The translations under genes were made by a program, and so were the position numbers. Below the pieces are notes generated by a model. The model was not told where the DNA came from, did no database searches, and saw only the letters and a program-made list of their open reading frames with translations. A stretch of DNA of 64,000 nt from Chryseobacterium sp. Lineage in GTDB: Bacteria; Bacteroidota; Bacteroidia; Flavobacteriales; Weeksellaceae. Numbering within the stretch: the stretch's first letter is position 1; every line of letters starts with the position of its first letter. Where the stretch lies: positions 62,001 through 126,000 of the forward strand of contig JAITUA010000017.1 of assembly GCA_031286615.1 (NCBI GenBank), written 5' to 3'. Of this stretch, positions 1,603-54,023 are shown in pieces.

Positions 1603-4212
1603 TTAGAAAGGATATCCGAACGCGATATTAACAGTAGGTTTGAAAGGCTGGAAATATTTGAATCTCCATCGGTCTCCATCAGGTTTATTCGGGTCGTAGA
1701 TCTTGTAAGCAAGGTCAATTCTGGCCGTTACATAGGCGATATTCAACCTTAATCCGAATCCACTTCCTATACCTACCTGTTTGAGGAACTTATTGAATTT
1801 AAATTCATCTCCATATCCGTCATTATAATTACGAAGACTCCATGTATTTCCTATATCTGTAAATAAAGCCCCTTCGTAAGTTTTATTGAAAGGAATTCTA
1901 TATTCAATATTGGTCGTAAGCTTTACATTGTCTGTCATATAAGTACGCACTCTTTCATCCACCTGAGAATCTGCAGGACCTAATCCTCCAAATGCTACCC
2001 AGGCTCTGATATCGTTGGAACCTCCATTGAAATATGATTTGATGATTGGCATGTCCTGAGAATTTCCAAACGGTATTCCCACCCCGATAAACTGGCGAAG
2101 TACCAATGTCTGGTTTCCGTTGAATTTGAAATACTTTCTGGCATCAATATCAAATTTTACAAACTGTGCATAAGGTAGCCCGAAAATGGTTTTTTGTGGA
2201 CCGGTAACAACACCTCCGTCGTTATCTTTTTTATTGAATAAGCTTAAAATGTTACCTGCAAGCTCAACTTTTCCATTGAAATAAAAGGCGTTTGGATATT
2301 CTTTTTTCCCAATTTCACTGTATACAAAGTTATAAATCATGGAAGAAATAAGAACGTCCTGTGTCTGCCTGTCTTTATTCACCAATGTTCCTCTGAAGGC
2401 TGTCAAAAGATCAGTTCCCTGTTGATTAAGACTCGCACGGTAAGCGTCGTTCTCGATAATCTTTTTTGAAACTTCATCTACGCTTAGTTTTCCATCTTTA
2501 TAATCTTGTCCGGTTTGTGCAGTTTCAGGGTTAAACATAAAATAATTCCCGAAAACTTCATCTTTTACCCTTCCGTCATTCACAAAATAATCGTAATAAG
2601 CATCTTTATTTTTTGTCAGACTGACCTGAGTATTGAATAAAGTAAGCTTATGATACACCTGATCATTAACACTTGCCTGATAATTCAGCCCCGTATTGAA
2701 AATCAATCTTCCCAAACCGATGTTGTTCTGTATGGATGCCCCTAACAAAATAGATGAAGTAGGCGTATATCGTTTAGGAATGAATTTATAATAATTAAAC
2801 GGAAGTAAAAGTCTCGGGAAATTCAATGATGCCTGAGCTGATATTTCATAGGCAGCAACTCTTTTATCAATATCCTTGGTACTTCTGATCGAGCCAAATG
2901 TTCCTGAAAGGCTCGTGGAAAGGTTTTCTGCCCCTCTGAAAACGTTTCGGGTAGTAAGGTCAACAGAAGGAGAGATACCGAGATTTAAAACCTGAGAATA
3001 ATTGATATCTGTTCCCAGTTTAAACTCATACTTCGGAAGCGGTTTTAATACATATAAAACATCAACAATACTGTCGTTAGGGGAAGCCATTCCTCCTTGT
3101 CTCAGAGAGTCTCTTGCCTTAACGATGCTGAAATTGTTCATCGCCAAAAGATTTCTCTTGGTTACATCAAGTTTAGTCTGGTCAAAAACCTTTTTGCTAT
3201 CCGGAATAATAGCTCTCCATACGGATGAAAGTTTATACTTATCATTCATCGTATGGAATCTTATTCTTCTTAAGCTGTCTTTTTTTGTATTTTTAGGGTA
3301 ATCACCAGGTTCATCAACAATCGCAACATCTATATTTCCGAAAGTCGAAATTTTATAAGGAGTATCCAGAGAGTCTTTATGGATTTCAAGTGTCAAAGGA
3401 ACCTGTTTCCTGCTTTTAAGAGAATCTGCCACAAAATAAACCTCATCATTGGAAGCATTGAATCTGTAGAAGCCAAACTCTCTCATCAGATCAGTAATTC
3501 GGGTTACCTCTCTCTCCAGAACGGTTTGATCAAGTATCTGTCCGGATCTCACAAGACTTCTGTTCAGGTTATAATTGTAGTAACCTTTAATCCCCGCATC
3601 CGGAATATTGTAAAAATAATCCTTGATTCGGGTAGGATCGTTATGTTTAATAGAATAATTAACGGTTGCTTTTTTTGAAGCGGAGTCCAGGGAGTGTTTA
3701 TACGTTACATCCGCATCCCAATATCCTCTGTAGGTAAGTCTTTTTTTAATAGACTCAGCACTTTTTTCACTTCTGGTCTGATCAAGAATCACAGGCGGTG
3801 TTCCCCAATTATGCAGTAAACGATCGAACAGCAGGCTTTTTCCGACACTGCTTTTCATATTGTATTTAAGGAATAAAGAGTCTCTCAGCTTCTGATTTCT
3901 CATCTCACCGGGATAGGTCATATATTCATTAAGTATCGTATCATATTTCGGGTCAGCCATATTGTACAGAAGAAGACTTAATGGCATGAAAAGGAATTGC
4001 TTTTTATTGGGCTTTTGCTGAATATAATCTTTCAGTTCCTCATCGAAAAATTCTTTCTTATCCTCGAACCCTAATGTGTTCTTGGTAAGCAGGTATTCGC
4101 CTTCAGGAACTTTTTTTGTCGTACTACAAGCATAAAGGAGACCAACAAATGTTGCAAATGAGATAATTTTATAATATTTTTGAGGAGAATTCTTATAATG
4201 CTTACAGCTCAT
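1603..4212 (-). CDS. tamL: BamA/TamA-family outer membrane assembly lipoprotein (TamL type)
   Basis: An 869-residue outer membrane beta-barrel protein. The N-terminus has a lipoprotein signal ending LLYAC with Cys29 as the predicted lipidation site. This is the feature that marks Bacteroidota TamL, whose partner is TamB. POTRA-like repeats follow (around 160-300), and the C-terminal half is a barrel with the FNGGSNDIRAW surface motif and a terminal aromatic (AFGYPF). It probably helps insert outer-membrane or surface proteins. The first 15 bases overlap the 5' end of the divergent rRNA methyltransferase gene; no later start keeps a usable signal peptide. Confidence 0.85.
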   Translation of the reverse strand: MSCKHYKNSPQKYYKIISFATFVGLLYACSTTKKVPEGEYLLTKNTLGFEDKKEFFDEELKDYIQQKPNKKQFLFMPLSLLLYNMADPKYDTILNEYMTYPGEMRNQKLRDSLFLKYNMKSSVGKSLLFDRLLHNWGTPPVILDQTRSEKSAESIKKRLTYRGYWDADVTYKHSLDSASKKATVNYSIKHNDPTRIKDYFYNIPDAGIKGYYNYNLNRSLVRSGQILDQTVLEREVTRITDLMREFGFYRFNASNDEVYFVADSLKSRKQVPLTLEIHKDSLDTPYKISTFGNIDVAIVDEPGDYPKNTKKDSLRRIRFHTMNDKYKLSSVWRAIIPDSKKVFDQTKLDVTKRNLLAMNNFSIVKARDSLRQGGMASPNDSIVDVLYVLKPLPKYEFKLGTDINYSQVLNLGISPSVDLTTRNVFRGAENLSTSLSGTFGSIRSTKDIDKRVAAYEISAQASLNFPRLLLPFNYYKFIPKRYTPTSSILLGASIQNNIGLGRLIFNTGLNYQASVNDQVYHKLTLFNTQVSLTKNKDAYYDYFVNDGRVKDEVFGNYFMFNPETAQTGQDYKDGKLSVDEVSKKIIENDAYRASLNQQGTDLLTAFRGTLVNKDRQTQDVLISSMIYNFVYSEIGKKEYPNAFYFNGKVELAGNILSLFNKKDNDGGVVTGPQKTIFGLPYAQFVKFDIDARKYFKFNGNQTLVLRQFIGVGIPFGNSQDMPIIKSYFNGGSNDIRAWVAFGGLGPADSQVDERVRTYMTDNVKLTTNIEYRIPFNKTYEGALFTDIGNTWSLRNYNDGYGDEFKFNKFLKQVGIGSGFGLRLNIAYVTARIDLAYKIYDPNKPDGDRWRFKYFQPFKPTVNIAFGYPF

Positions 4213-49486: not shown

Positions 49487-50080
49487 TTAATAAAATATCT
49501 TCCTGTTCTGAACTTTTATTAAATGCGCATTATGCATTTTTTTAATTGTTCTGATCACTGTTTCCACGCGCAGCCCTGTTAAATTAGCTAGCTGCTGTCT
49601 CGTGAGGGGAATCTGAAATGAATATTTGTTATTGTCATTATTGCCCTTCAGATAGTCCATTACCGTTTTGAGCTTATTTAAAGGATCAGGTGAGGAAACA
49701 TTAAATAGCATCACATACTTGTAATACAACCGCTCAGCCATACATTTAAACATTTTGGAAGGAACTTCCGGATTTTGGTCCAGTAAGCTGAAGAAATCTG
49801 GTTTGGATAATTTGAGAACAGTACAGGGAGTTTTAGCTGTAGCATTGGTAGGGTAGACCTTTTCATCAAAAAGAAATGATTCTCCAAAACTCTCCCCGTC
49901 ATACAAAATGTTTTGAATAAATTCTTTGCCGTCTTCATGATAGTTGTTTAGTTCAACAATGCCATTAATAATCTGATAATAAAACTTTGGCAAACTTCCT
50001 TCATGAAAAATCGTTTGATTCGCTTCAAGGTTTTCATAATTTGCACCATAGGCCAATAATAAATCTTCACCTATTATCAT
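49487..50080 (-). CDS. Crp/Fnr-family regulator (paralogue A)
   Basis: A 197-residue regulator with a cNMP-like beta roll (NQTIFHEGSLPKFYYQIINGIVEL; GESFGESFLFDEKVYPTNATA) and C-terminal helix-turn-helix (LTRQQLANLTGLRVETVIRTIKKM). The cAMP phosphate-binding Arg-Ser pair is replaced, so it probably does not bind cAMP. It closely resembles the regulator at 53406-54023, with almost the same recognition helix. A hairpin at 49432-49448 may end it. Confidence 0.85.
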   Translation of the reverse strand: MIIGEDLLLAYGANYENLEANQTIFHEGSLPKFYYQIINGIVELNNYHEDGKEFIQNILYDGESFGESFLFDEKVYPTNATAKTPCTVLKLSKPDFFSLLDQNPEVPSKMFKCMAERLYYKYVMLFNVSSPDPLNKLKTVMDYLKGNNDNNKYSFQIPLTRQQLANLTGLRVETVIRTIKKMHNAHLIKVQNRKIFY

Positions 50081-51343: not shown

Positions 51344-51351
51344 TATATTTG
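51344..51351 (+). promoter_or_regulatory. -7 element (TATATTTG) of lysC leader
   Basis: A perfect TAnnTTTG match. Transcription would begin about 51357, roughly 12 bases ahead of the leader peptide start. No good -33 TTG at normal spacing is visible. Confidence 0.6.
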
Positions 51352-51368
51352 CCCAGCAAAAAAAGAAA

Positions 51369-51425
51369 ATGATATTATCTAACTTAAAAAAAGGAAAGAA
51401 ACAGTACTTACGTCGAATGTCGTGA
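51369..51425 (+). CDS. Lysine-rich leader peptide of the lysC attenuator
   Basis: An 18-codon ORF, MILSNLKKGKKQYLRRMS then TGA, with four Lys codons within five positions (51387-51401). Its last codons (TGTCGTGA, 51418-51425) are exactly complementary to part of the downstream terminator. Its size, location and composition fit a leader peptide whose translation speed senses charged tRNA-Lys. The peptide itself probably has no function. Confidence 0.65.
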   Translation: MILSNLKKGKKQYLRRMS

Positions 51426-51493
51426 GTCATCTTCCTATTGGTTAGAAATCAAATACATCAGGAGCTTGTCATCACGACAGGCTCTTTTTTTTT
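51418..51493 (+). promoter_or_regulatory. Transcription attenuator of lysC (antiterminator and terminator)
   Basis: Terminator: GAGCTTGTC (51462-51470) pairs with GACAGGCTC (51476-51484), loop ATCAC, one G-U pair, then nine T. Antiterminator: TGTCGTGA (51418-51425) pairs perfectly with TCACGACA (51472-51479), which uses the loop and 3' arm of the terminator. The two folds exclude each other, as in classical amino acid attenuators. The lysC start is 26 bases further on. Confidence 0.75.
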
Positions 51494-51519
51494 GAAAAAT
51501 TTTGACAATTTAATATATT

Positions 51520-53405: not shown

Positions 53406-54023
53406 TTAATATAAAATCCTGCGGCCCTCAAGCTTTATCATTTCATTTTTTACCATTTTTTTTACCGTTCTGATGACTGTCTCAACTCTCAGTCCTGTAA
53501 GATCAGCAATTTGCTGGCGGGTAAGCTCTATAGGAAAACAGTGCTGACAGTCTCCGTCATGATAGCTTTTCAGATAATCCATTACGCCTTTCAGTCGTTG
53601 AATAGGATCTGCTAATGCCAGATTACGGACCATTAAGTTGTTATAATACAGTCTTTGTGATAAACACATATTCATTTCCAGAGAAAGTTCCGGATTACGT
53701 TTAAGCATTTCCATGAAATTATCTTTGGACATCTTTACAATTTCTGTAGTTTGTAAACTTATAGCATTGGTAGGATAAAGCTTTTCAATAAAAAGAAGCG
53801 GATCTCCAAAACTTTGATTTTTACCCAATATGTTATGAATAAATTCCCTTCCGTTTTCAGTAAAGATGTTCAGTTTTACTTTTCCACTGATAATCTGAAA
53901 ATAATATTGTGAATGATCACCTTCTTTGAAAATAAACTCGTGAGCCTTATAGATGACATTTTCACCCCCGAATGAATGAAGGATTTTCTCATCGATATTC
54001 ATGCAGCTTATTGTTTTTTTCAT
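53406..54023 (-). CDS. Crp/Fnr-family regulator (paralogue B)
   Basis: A 205-residue regulator with a beta roll (HEFIFKEGDHSQYYFQIISGKVKLNIF; NQSFGDPLLFIEKLYPTNAIS) and C-terminal helix-turn-helix LTRQQIADLTGLRVETVIRTVKKM. The recognition helix is nearly the same as in the protein at 49487-50080, so both probably bind the same or very similar sites. Four Cys (CMN, CLS, CQHC) are present, but not the N-terminal FNR cluster pattern. Confidence 0.85.
   Translation of the reverse strand: MKKTISCMNIDEKILHSFGGENVIYKAHEFIFKEGDHSQYYFQIISGKVKLNIFTENGREFIHNILGKNQSFGDPLLFIEKLYPTNAISLQTTEIVKMSKDNFMEMLKRNPELSLEMNMCLSQRLYYNNLMVRNLALADPIQRLKGVMDYLKSYHDGDCQHCFPIELTRQQIADLTGLRVETVIRTVKKMVKNEMIKLEGRRILY

Follow-up and report, generated by a model that had tools for sequence, protein, structure and literature searches.

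A riboswitch is a standard means by which lysine controls lysC, and a Chryseobacterium locus where a short open reading frame with clustered lysine codons stands upstream of lysC raises the question of whether the supply of lysine can also be read by the ribosome. The original prediction for this DNA saw a -7 promoter element, a leader open reading frame, an antiterminator arm and an intrinsic terminator here, and direct reading of the window (the whole stretch of DNA that was analysed, 64,000 nucleotides) finds all four (Table 1). As argued below, the leader is very probably a relative of the Bacteroid-trp attenuator that carries lysine in place of tryptophan codons and that would admit transcription into lysC only when lysyl-tRNA is short.

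Anatomy and conservation of the lysC leader

Table 1. Features of the lysC leader region and the evidence for each, in window coordinates.
Feature	Position	Strand	Evidence
Putative -7-type promoter element, TATATTTG (activity predicted)	51344..51351	+	direct reading
Leader ORF, 18 codons, MILSNLKKGKKQYLRRMS then stop	51369..51425	+	direct reading; layout common to relatives
Control codons Lys7 Lys8 Gly9 Lys10 Lys11 (KKGKK)	51387..51401	+	30 distinct leader ends
Segment 1, ACTTACG, protector arm, overlapping Tyr-Leu-Arg codons	51406..51412	+	folds, pair counts
Segment 2, TGTCGTGAGT, antiterminator arm, leader stop codon inside	51418..51427	+	8-base complement to 51472-51479
CTTCCT extension	~51431..51436	+	folding only
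Segment 3, TCACGACA, loop and start of terminator 3' arm	51472..51479	+	direct reading
Intrinsic terminator, 9-bp stem, 5-nt loop, nine T	51462..51493	+	folding, pair changes
lysC, monofunctional aspartokinase, 439 aa	51520..52839	+	family profile matches

The putative promoter element fits TAnnTTTG, which we take to be the Bacteroidetes-type -7 promoter consensus, and it is present in all 24 upstream regions of the alignment. In the leader ORF, which is predicted to be translated, the lysine codons form two pairs (51387-51392 and 51396-51401) with a glycine codon (51393-51395) between them. A short reading frame with clustered codons for one amino acid is thus followed by a gene of that amino acid's own pathway, as expected of an attenuator. 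The LysC protein scores 305.6 bits against the aspartokinase family TIGR00657 (cut-off 208.7), and its best family is PRK09084, the lysine-sensitive aspartokinase 3, at 387.7 bits, which is under the cut-off of 455. Genes for Crp/Fnr-like regulators flank lysC on the minus strand (49487-50080 and 53406-54023), with family scores that all lie below the curated cut-offs.

The leader stop codon (51423-51425) falls within segment 2, and TGTCGTGA (51418-51425) is the exact reverse complement of TCACGACA (51472-51479), just as the original prediction had it for the loop and 3' arm of the terminator. The terminator stem joins 51462-51470 to 51476-51484 and runs into nine T at 51485-51493; the region 51458-51492 folds at -15.9 kcal/mol (z -6.3), and the loop is conserved though it is unpaired in the terminator. 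What the original prediction had not seen is the protector arm, in which ACTTACG (51406-51412) is predicted by folding to pair with CGTGAGT (51421-51427), and which completes a modelled scheme of 1:2, 2:3 and 3:4 pairings. The CTTCCT extension, likewise absent from the original prediction, has predicted partners at ~51392-51399 in the protector and at ~51460-51464 in the antiterminator and would lengthen both hairpins.

These elements are not a chance product, as shuffled sequences, the folding z-score and conservation in relatives all argue. A terminator by the strict rule arose in none of the 20,000 dinucleotide shuffles made of 51345-51495, and a lysine cluster in a short ORF in 49; the folding z-score of 51352-51496 is -4.35. 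Relatives of lysC were taken as the best 80 from a scan of named genomes, in which more existed. The leader is present at all 25 Flavobacteriales loci among these 80 (Chryseobacterium, Paenimyroides, Myroides, Flavobacterium, Avrilella and one unclassified member of Flavobacteriaceae), and the leader motif was found in none of the other 55 lysC loci, nearly all of them Sphingobacteriales by title, where no match to the lysC-leader model exceeds 29.0 bits; one of these 55 (L031) has 15 bases of upstream sequence only and is uninformative on the leader. Within the genus, 18 of 118 genomes encode this LysC at E<=1e-150, and every one of the 18 copies is preceded by the leader (13, and 5 more read on the minus strand). 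The Flavobacteriales and same-genus counts are not independent, because several of the loci come from the same species. Across 395 genomes of the order, the ten with a LysC of at least 66% identity are the same ten that carry the lysC-type leader, which is absent from the four order genomes with a LysC at 53-56% identity: the leader goes together with one type of LysC.

Conservation extends to the control codons themselves. Among leader ends of 36 nt, of which 30 are distinct, Lys8, Lys10 and Lys11 are invariant and Lys7 is present in 28; the filter for these ends demanded lysine at positions 10 and 11, and both also stand in all 39 rows of a motif search made without that demand. Synonymous codons are exchanged at Lys8 (AAA 11, AAG 19) and Lys11 (AAA 23, AAG 7) and once at Lys10 (AAG 29, AAA 1), and codon 9 varies between Gly (24), Ala (3), Ser, Val and Gln (one each). 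The conserved peptide core reads KKxKKxxLRxxS, residues 1-6 vary between lineages, and the ORF of one locus (L041) has one codon more than the other lysC leaders. Lysine codons and complementary arms are therefore kept in Chryseobacterium and in other relatives, which is what the original prediction had proposed to look for; their loss in relatives, which would have spoken against it, was not seen. Two features of single loci were also noted: a tandem repeat with a unit of ~100 bases, recognised by eye at ~2750-3000 before lysC of Olivibacter domesticus (L080), and a fluoride riboswitch match of 43.3 bits on the minus strand of the Myroides sp. 1354 locus (L022:249-309).

Pairing, folding and the predicted switch

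The expectation that both pairings covary is borne out for the terminator but, within the alignments, not for the antiterminator. In 61 lysine and tryptophan leaders taken together, pairing in the terminator stem holds in 100% of cells, and 6 of its 9 pairs carry changes on both sides; the protector is paired in 82.2%, with 3 of 7 pairs so changed. The antiterminator core is nearly invariant (93.2% of cells paired), and no covariation of the 2:3 helix was found in the 25-row or the 61-row alignment. Partners that change together are seen in distant trp leaders, with GTCGTAAG facing CTTACGAC in L295, AACGTGA facing TCACGTT in L243 and TGTGAAC facing GTTCACA in L239. When segments 2 were permuted among 26 distinct loop regions (from 89 unique rows), only 7 of 20,000 permutations fitted as well as the leaders' own, in a test that ignores relatedness and includes at least two rows (W_L158 and X_L286) with the wrong hairpin picked.

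Folding shows how the position of a ribosome would choose between the hairpins. The region 51402-51486 folds into protector plus terminator (-25.8 kcal/mol); from 51414, as with a ribosome on the last lysine codon and segment 1 covered, the antiterminator forms (-21.1), and from 51429, as with a ribosome at the stop codon, the terminator (-18.0). In a stall model of the window with five ribosome footprints, the probability of the antiterminator is 0.58-0.69 at all five when Lys11 is in the A site, and 0.01 (shortest footprint), 0.28, 0.57, 0.65 and 0.69 when it is Lys10. It falls to 0.22-0.59 at Gln12 and 0.00-0.50 at Tyr13; with a single footprint each it rises to at most 0.28 at Gly9 and 0.32 at Leu14, and it is about zero at Lys7, at Lys8 and from Arg15 to the stop. 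Lys7 and Lys8 would consequently lie outside the predicted sensing window. The geometry proposed originally, with stalling at the lysine codons favouring the antiterminator and arrival at the arginine codons or the stop opposing it, is thus reproduced by the folding model for Lys11 and, at most footprints, for Lys10.

With no ribosome, the terminator of the window has a probability of 0.999. When the full-length RNA is folded to equilibrium, the terminator prevails in 27 of 29 lysC leaders, and the minimum probability of the terminator drops below 0.5 in only two of the 29 (0.42 in the window, 0.43 in L098) and in 3 of 54 trp leaders. Switching by pure equilibrium was rejected for most relatives on these grounds; a working switch would have to act during transcription. 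When the modelled RNA ends 3 nt past segment 3, stalls from -1 to +2 codons of the last control codon bring the 2:3 helix to at least 0.5 in 28 of 29 Lys and 51 of 54 Trp leaders, and stalls at +4 to +8 in none of either (0/29 and 0/54); early stalls still allow it in 4 of 29 and 34 of 54. With the RNA ending exactly at segment 3, early stalls are already enough for the helix in 26 of 29 Lys and 52 of 54 Trp leaders, and with an end 6 nt further on, stalls at the control codons bring it to 0.5 in no more than 10 of 29 and 10 of 54. The outcome therefore depends on timing, in models that ignore the polymerase footprint and kinetics. A stall-determined choice between exclusive antiterminator and terminator appears in the folding models for the window, and for the relatives in the co-transcriptional model only.

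The lysC leader is thus likely to be a lysine-starvation switch. With ample Lys-tRNA, the ribosome would run to the stop codon and cover segment 2 (51418-51427), leaving the terminator (51462-51493) to halt RNA polymerase. With scarce Lys-tRNA it would stall at Lys10 or Lys11 and cover segment 1 (51406-51412), so that segment 2 would be free to pair with the emerging 51472-51479 and block the terminator; without translation, the 1:2 hairpin would form and transcription would terminate. Thr and other enterobacterial leaders are classical cases of ribosome-mediated attenuation and share this logic for other amino acids; they gave no significant sequence match, the model Thr_leader reaching only E 0.44 (L041) and 0.53 (L032). 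A proposed leader with some lysine codons is the small ORF SEP5 of Sinorhizobium meliloti, for which a leader role is suggested in PMC10117765; it differs in having mostly threonine codons (six Thr and three Lys) and belongs to another phylum and another gene.

Probable kinship with the tryptophan attenuators

The Bacteroid-trp leader is Rfam family RF01692 (Weinberg et al. 2010, PMC2864571, as given in Table 1 of that paper), and a relation to it had escaped the original prediction. A covariance model of 25 lysC leaders (R1) gave matches with E<=0.01 in 122 of the 395 genomes of the order. Among the loci read, the true leaders were of two kinds, ten before lysC and the others Trp-Trp-Trp leaders before trpE, which this lysine-only model finds with E values down to 1.8e-13. 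A further 60 R1 matches that were fetched comprised 34 Trp leaders and 26 loci without a leader. In all, 54 trp leaders were collected, selected by the stretch TGGTGGTGG; the gene that follows encodes TrpE in all 54, and LysC in all 29 Lys leaders.

The strongest test of this kinship is the reciprocal search. A model of 30 trpE leaders that starts after the last Trp codon and so omits the control codons (R3) recovers all 27 of the lysC leaders given among 89 sources, in the same register, at 57.3-82 bits (E<=6.3e-9), and its match in the window begins at 51402, the codon after the last Lys. The next match, at 39.8 bits, falls on the reverse strand of one of these leaders, and the best in the 55 other lysC loci has 26.8 bits. 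Like Bacteroid-trp leaders, those of lysC have an ORF of ~18 codons with the last control codon placed eight codons ahead of the stop (so in 44 of the 54 trp leaders collected), in many cases an LRxxS end directly before it, a TCGTGA segment and a terminator with TCATCACGACA in loop and arm. In the ten trp leaders with the stop elsewhere, TCGTGA is kept in seven, an argument for its conservation at the RNA level. The differences are Lys instead of Trp codons and lysC instead of trpE downstream.

Against RF01692 itself, both trp loci searched (L111 and L118) score 80.9 and 66.4 bits, over the cut-off of 49, whereas the window scores 21.5 bits, under that gathering score, and one lysC locus (L032) comes near it at 46.2; seven other lysC loci gave no match at E<=1. 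By score and by control codons the lysC leader thus falls outside Bacteroid-trp, while a trp-only model finds its chassis in register. A model of Lys and Trp leaders without control codons (R2) matched 89 of 395 order genomes at E<=1e-4 and 60 of 395 class genomes at E<=1e-3. The part of these matches that was read holds only Trp or Lys leaders, with no other amino acid on the chassis, and otherwise bare terminators, one at 8.3e-7 (L292); the stricter filters used on many genomes lose weak matches, and rarer variants may have been passed over. Same-chassis Trp leaders stand before TrpB, not TrpE, in L242 and L248 (judged by the TrpB N-terminus in the latter), and the trpE leader of L239, at ~1470-1530 on the reverse complement, has mixed control codons, Lys-Lys-Trp-Trp (MRTIVLNKKWWQFTKELVNG then stop).

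The likeness could instead reflect convergence on an efficient terminator-antiterminator pair, since mutual constraint between the two hairpins would narrow the choice of sequence. We consider this unlikely: the likeness spans register, the 18-codon ORF, the LR..S-stop end and ~90 aligned positions, distant trp leaders do the same job with other sequences, and the trpE leader of the window genome itself has another terminator. Very unlikely, too, is an additional action of the terminated leader RNA or peptide in trans as the cause of the conservation, as known for rnTrpL and peTrpL of Sinorhizobium (PMC7298713 and PMC10117765). The peptide core is indeed very conserved; most of its conserved residues, however, fall on control codons or on paired RNA, and the first six residues change with lineage.

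A sensor of arginine or of translation in general, in which the conserved Leu-Arg matters and the lysine codons are incidental to A-rich sequence, would suit an AT-rich leader region in which Leu14-Arg15 is invariant (30 of 30 leaders), an invariance partly built in by a search motif that demanded CTT[AG]CG. This we hold to be highly improbable, given that these codons lie on segment 1, which is paired, and are missing from some trp leaders, that modelled stalls at Arg15 and Arg16 lead to termination, and that Lys8 and Lys11, on either side of the variable codon 9, occur as AAA or AAG and are never replaced by another residue. There is next to no chance that the leader is a metabolite-binding RNA with an incidental ORF, strong nucleotide conservation and alternative folds notwithstanding, as it matched no riboswitch family, maintains its ORF through synonymous changes and shares its chassis with leaders that have Trp codons before trpE. 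The lysine riboswitch (L-box, RF00168), which controls lysC in gamma-proteobacteria and Firmicutes according to PMC12925634 and PMC2659441, was not found in the window, where a tRNA is the sole match of one scan and RF00168 is absent from the nine matches at E<=10 of another, nor in the eight lysC loci searched. Both systems would place lysC under control of lysine supply; the L-box aptamer binds free lysine, whereas the lysC leader would read the charging of Lys-tRNA through the ribosome.

Origin and meaning of the lysine leader

In a LysC tree of 50 rows, the Chryseobacterium genes group with those of Paenimyroides (17 rows, 100/100) inside Flavobacteriaceae, which together with their patchy presence in the genus suggests transfer: the gene and its switch have probably moved between genera together. 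This link to one probably laterally spread type of LysC is a further point of which the original prediction was unaware. Leader presence takes two changes on the tree, and one change in 26% of bootstrap trees.

The lysine leader probably arose by exchanging tryptophan for lysine codons, a direction suggested by the wide distribution of the tryptophan form, which precedes trpE and trpB and occurs in other families of the class. It seems likely to us that a Trp attenuator became a Lys attenuator by such a swap at fixed register, and that the cassette, placed before lysC, then passed from Flavobacteriaceae to Chryseobacterium. Descent from the trpE leader of the window genome (L224, G000:C19) was considered and is judged unlikely, as that leader reads MSNNIWWWLSNSSSGLKVLSCC then stop and its terminator is unlike that of the lysC leader. 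No second copy was found in the window genome, in which R1 and R2 gave the lysC leader only, and no Lys or Trp leader was seen at the next best matches (E 0.02 and 0.002). The same genome has two further aspartokinases besides lysC. Upstream of a ThrA-like aspartokinase (L082, G000:C5) lies an ORF with six consecutive Thr codons (MNLLRNISDISALKSLISGISSVSTFTTTTTTP then stop), which by its sequence is likely to be a threonine attenuator of other make.

Among the open-access papers listed for lysine attenuators, flavobacterial attenuators and Bacteroid-trp, mostly as titles and the beginnings of abstracts, no lysine attenuator of lysC was found, in keeping with the original prediction, which knew of none in flavobacteria. 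A lysine attenuator read by the ribosome would be a second solution for lysC, at loci where no L-box was found, and would widen the circle of relatives of Rfam's Bacteroid-trp to an amino acid other than tryptophan. More broadly, it suggests that an attenuator can be given a new specificity through a change of codons on a retained RNA switch, which may be useful for sensor design.
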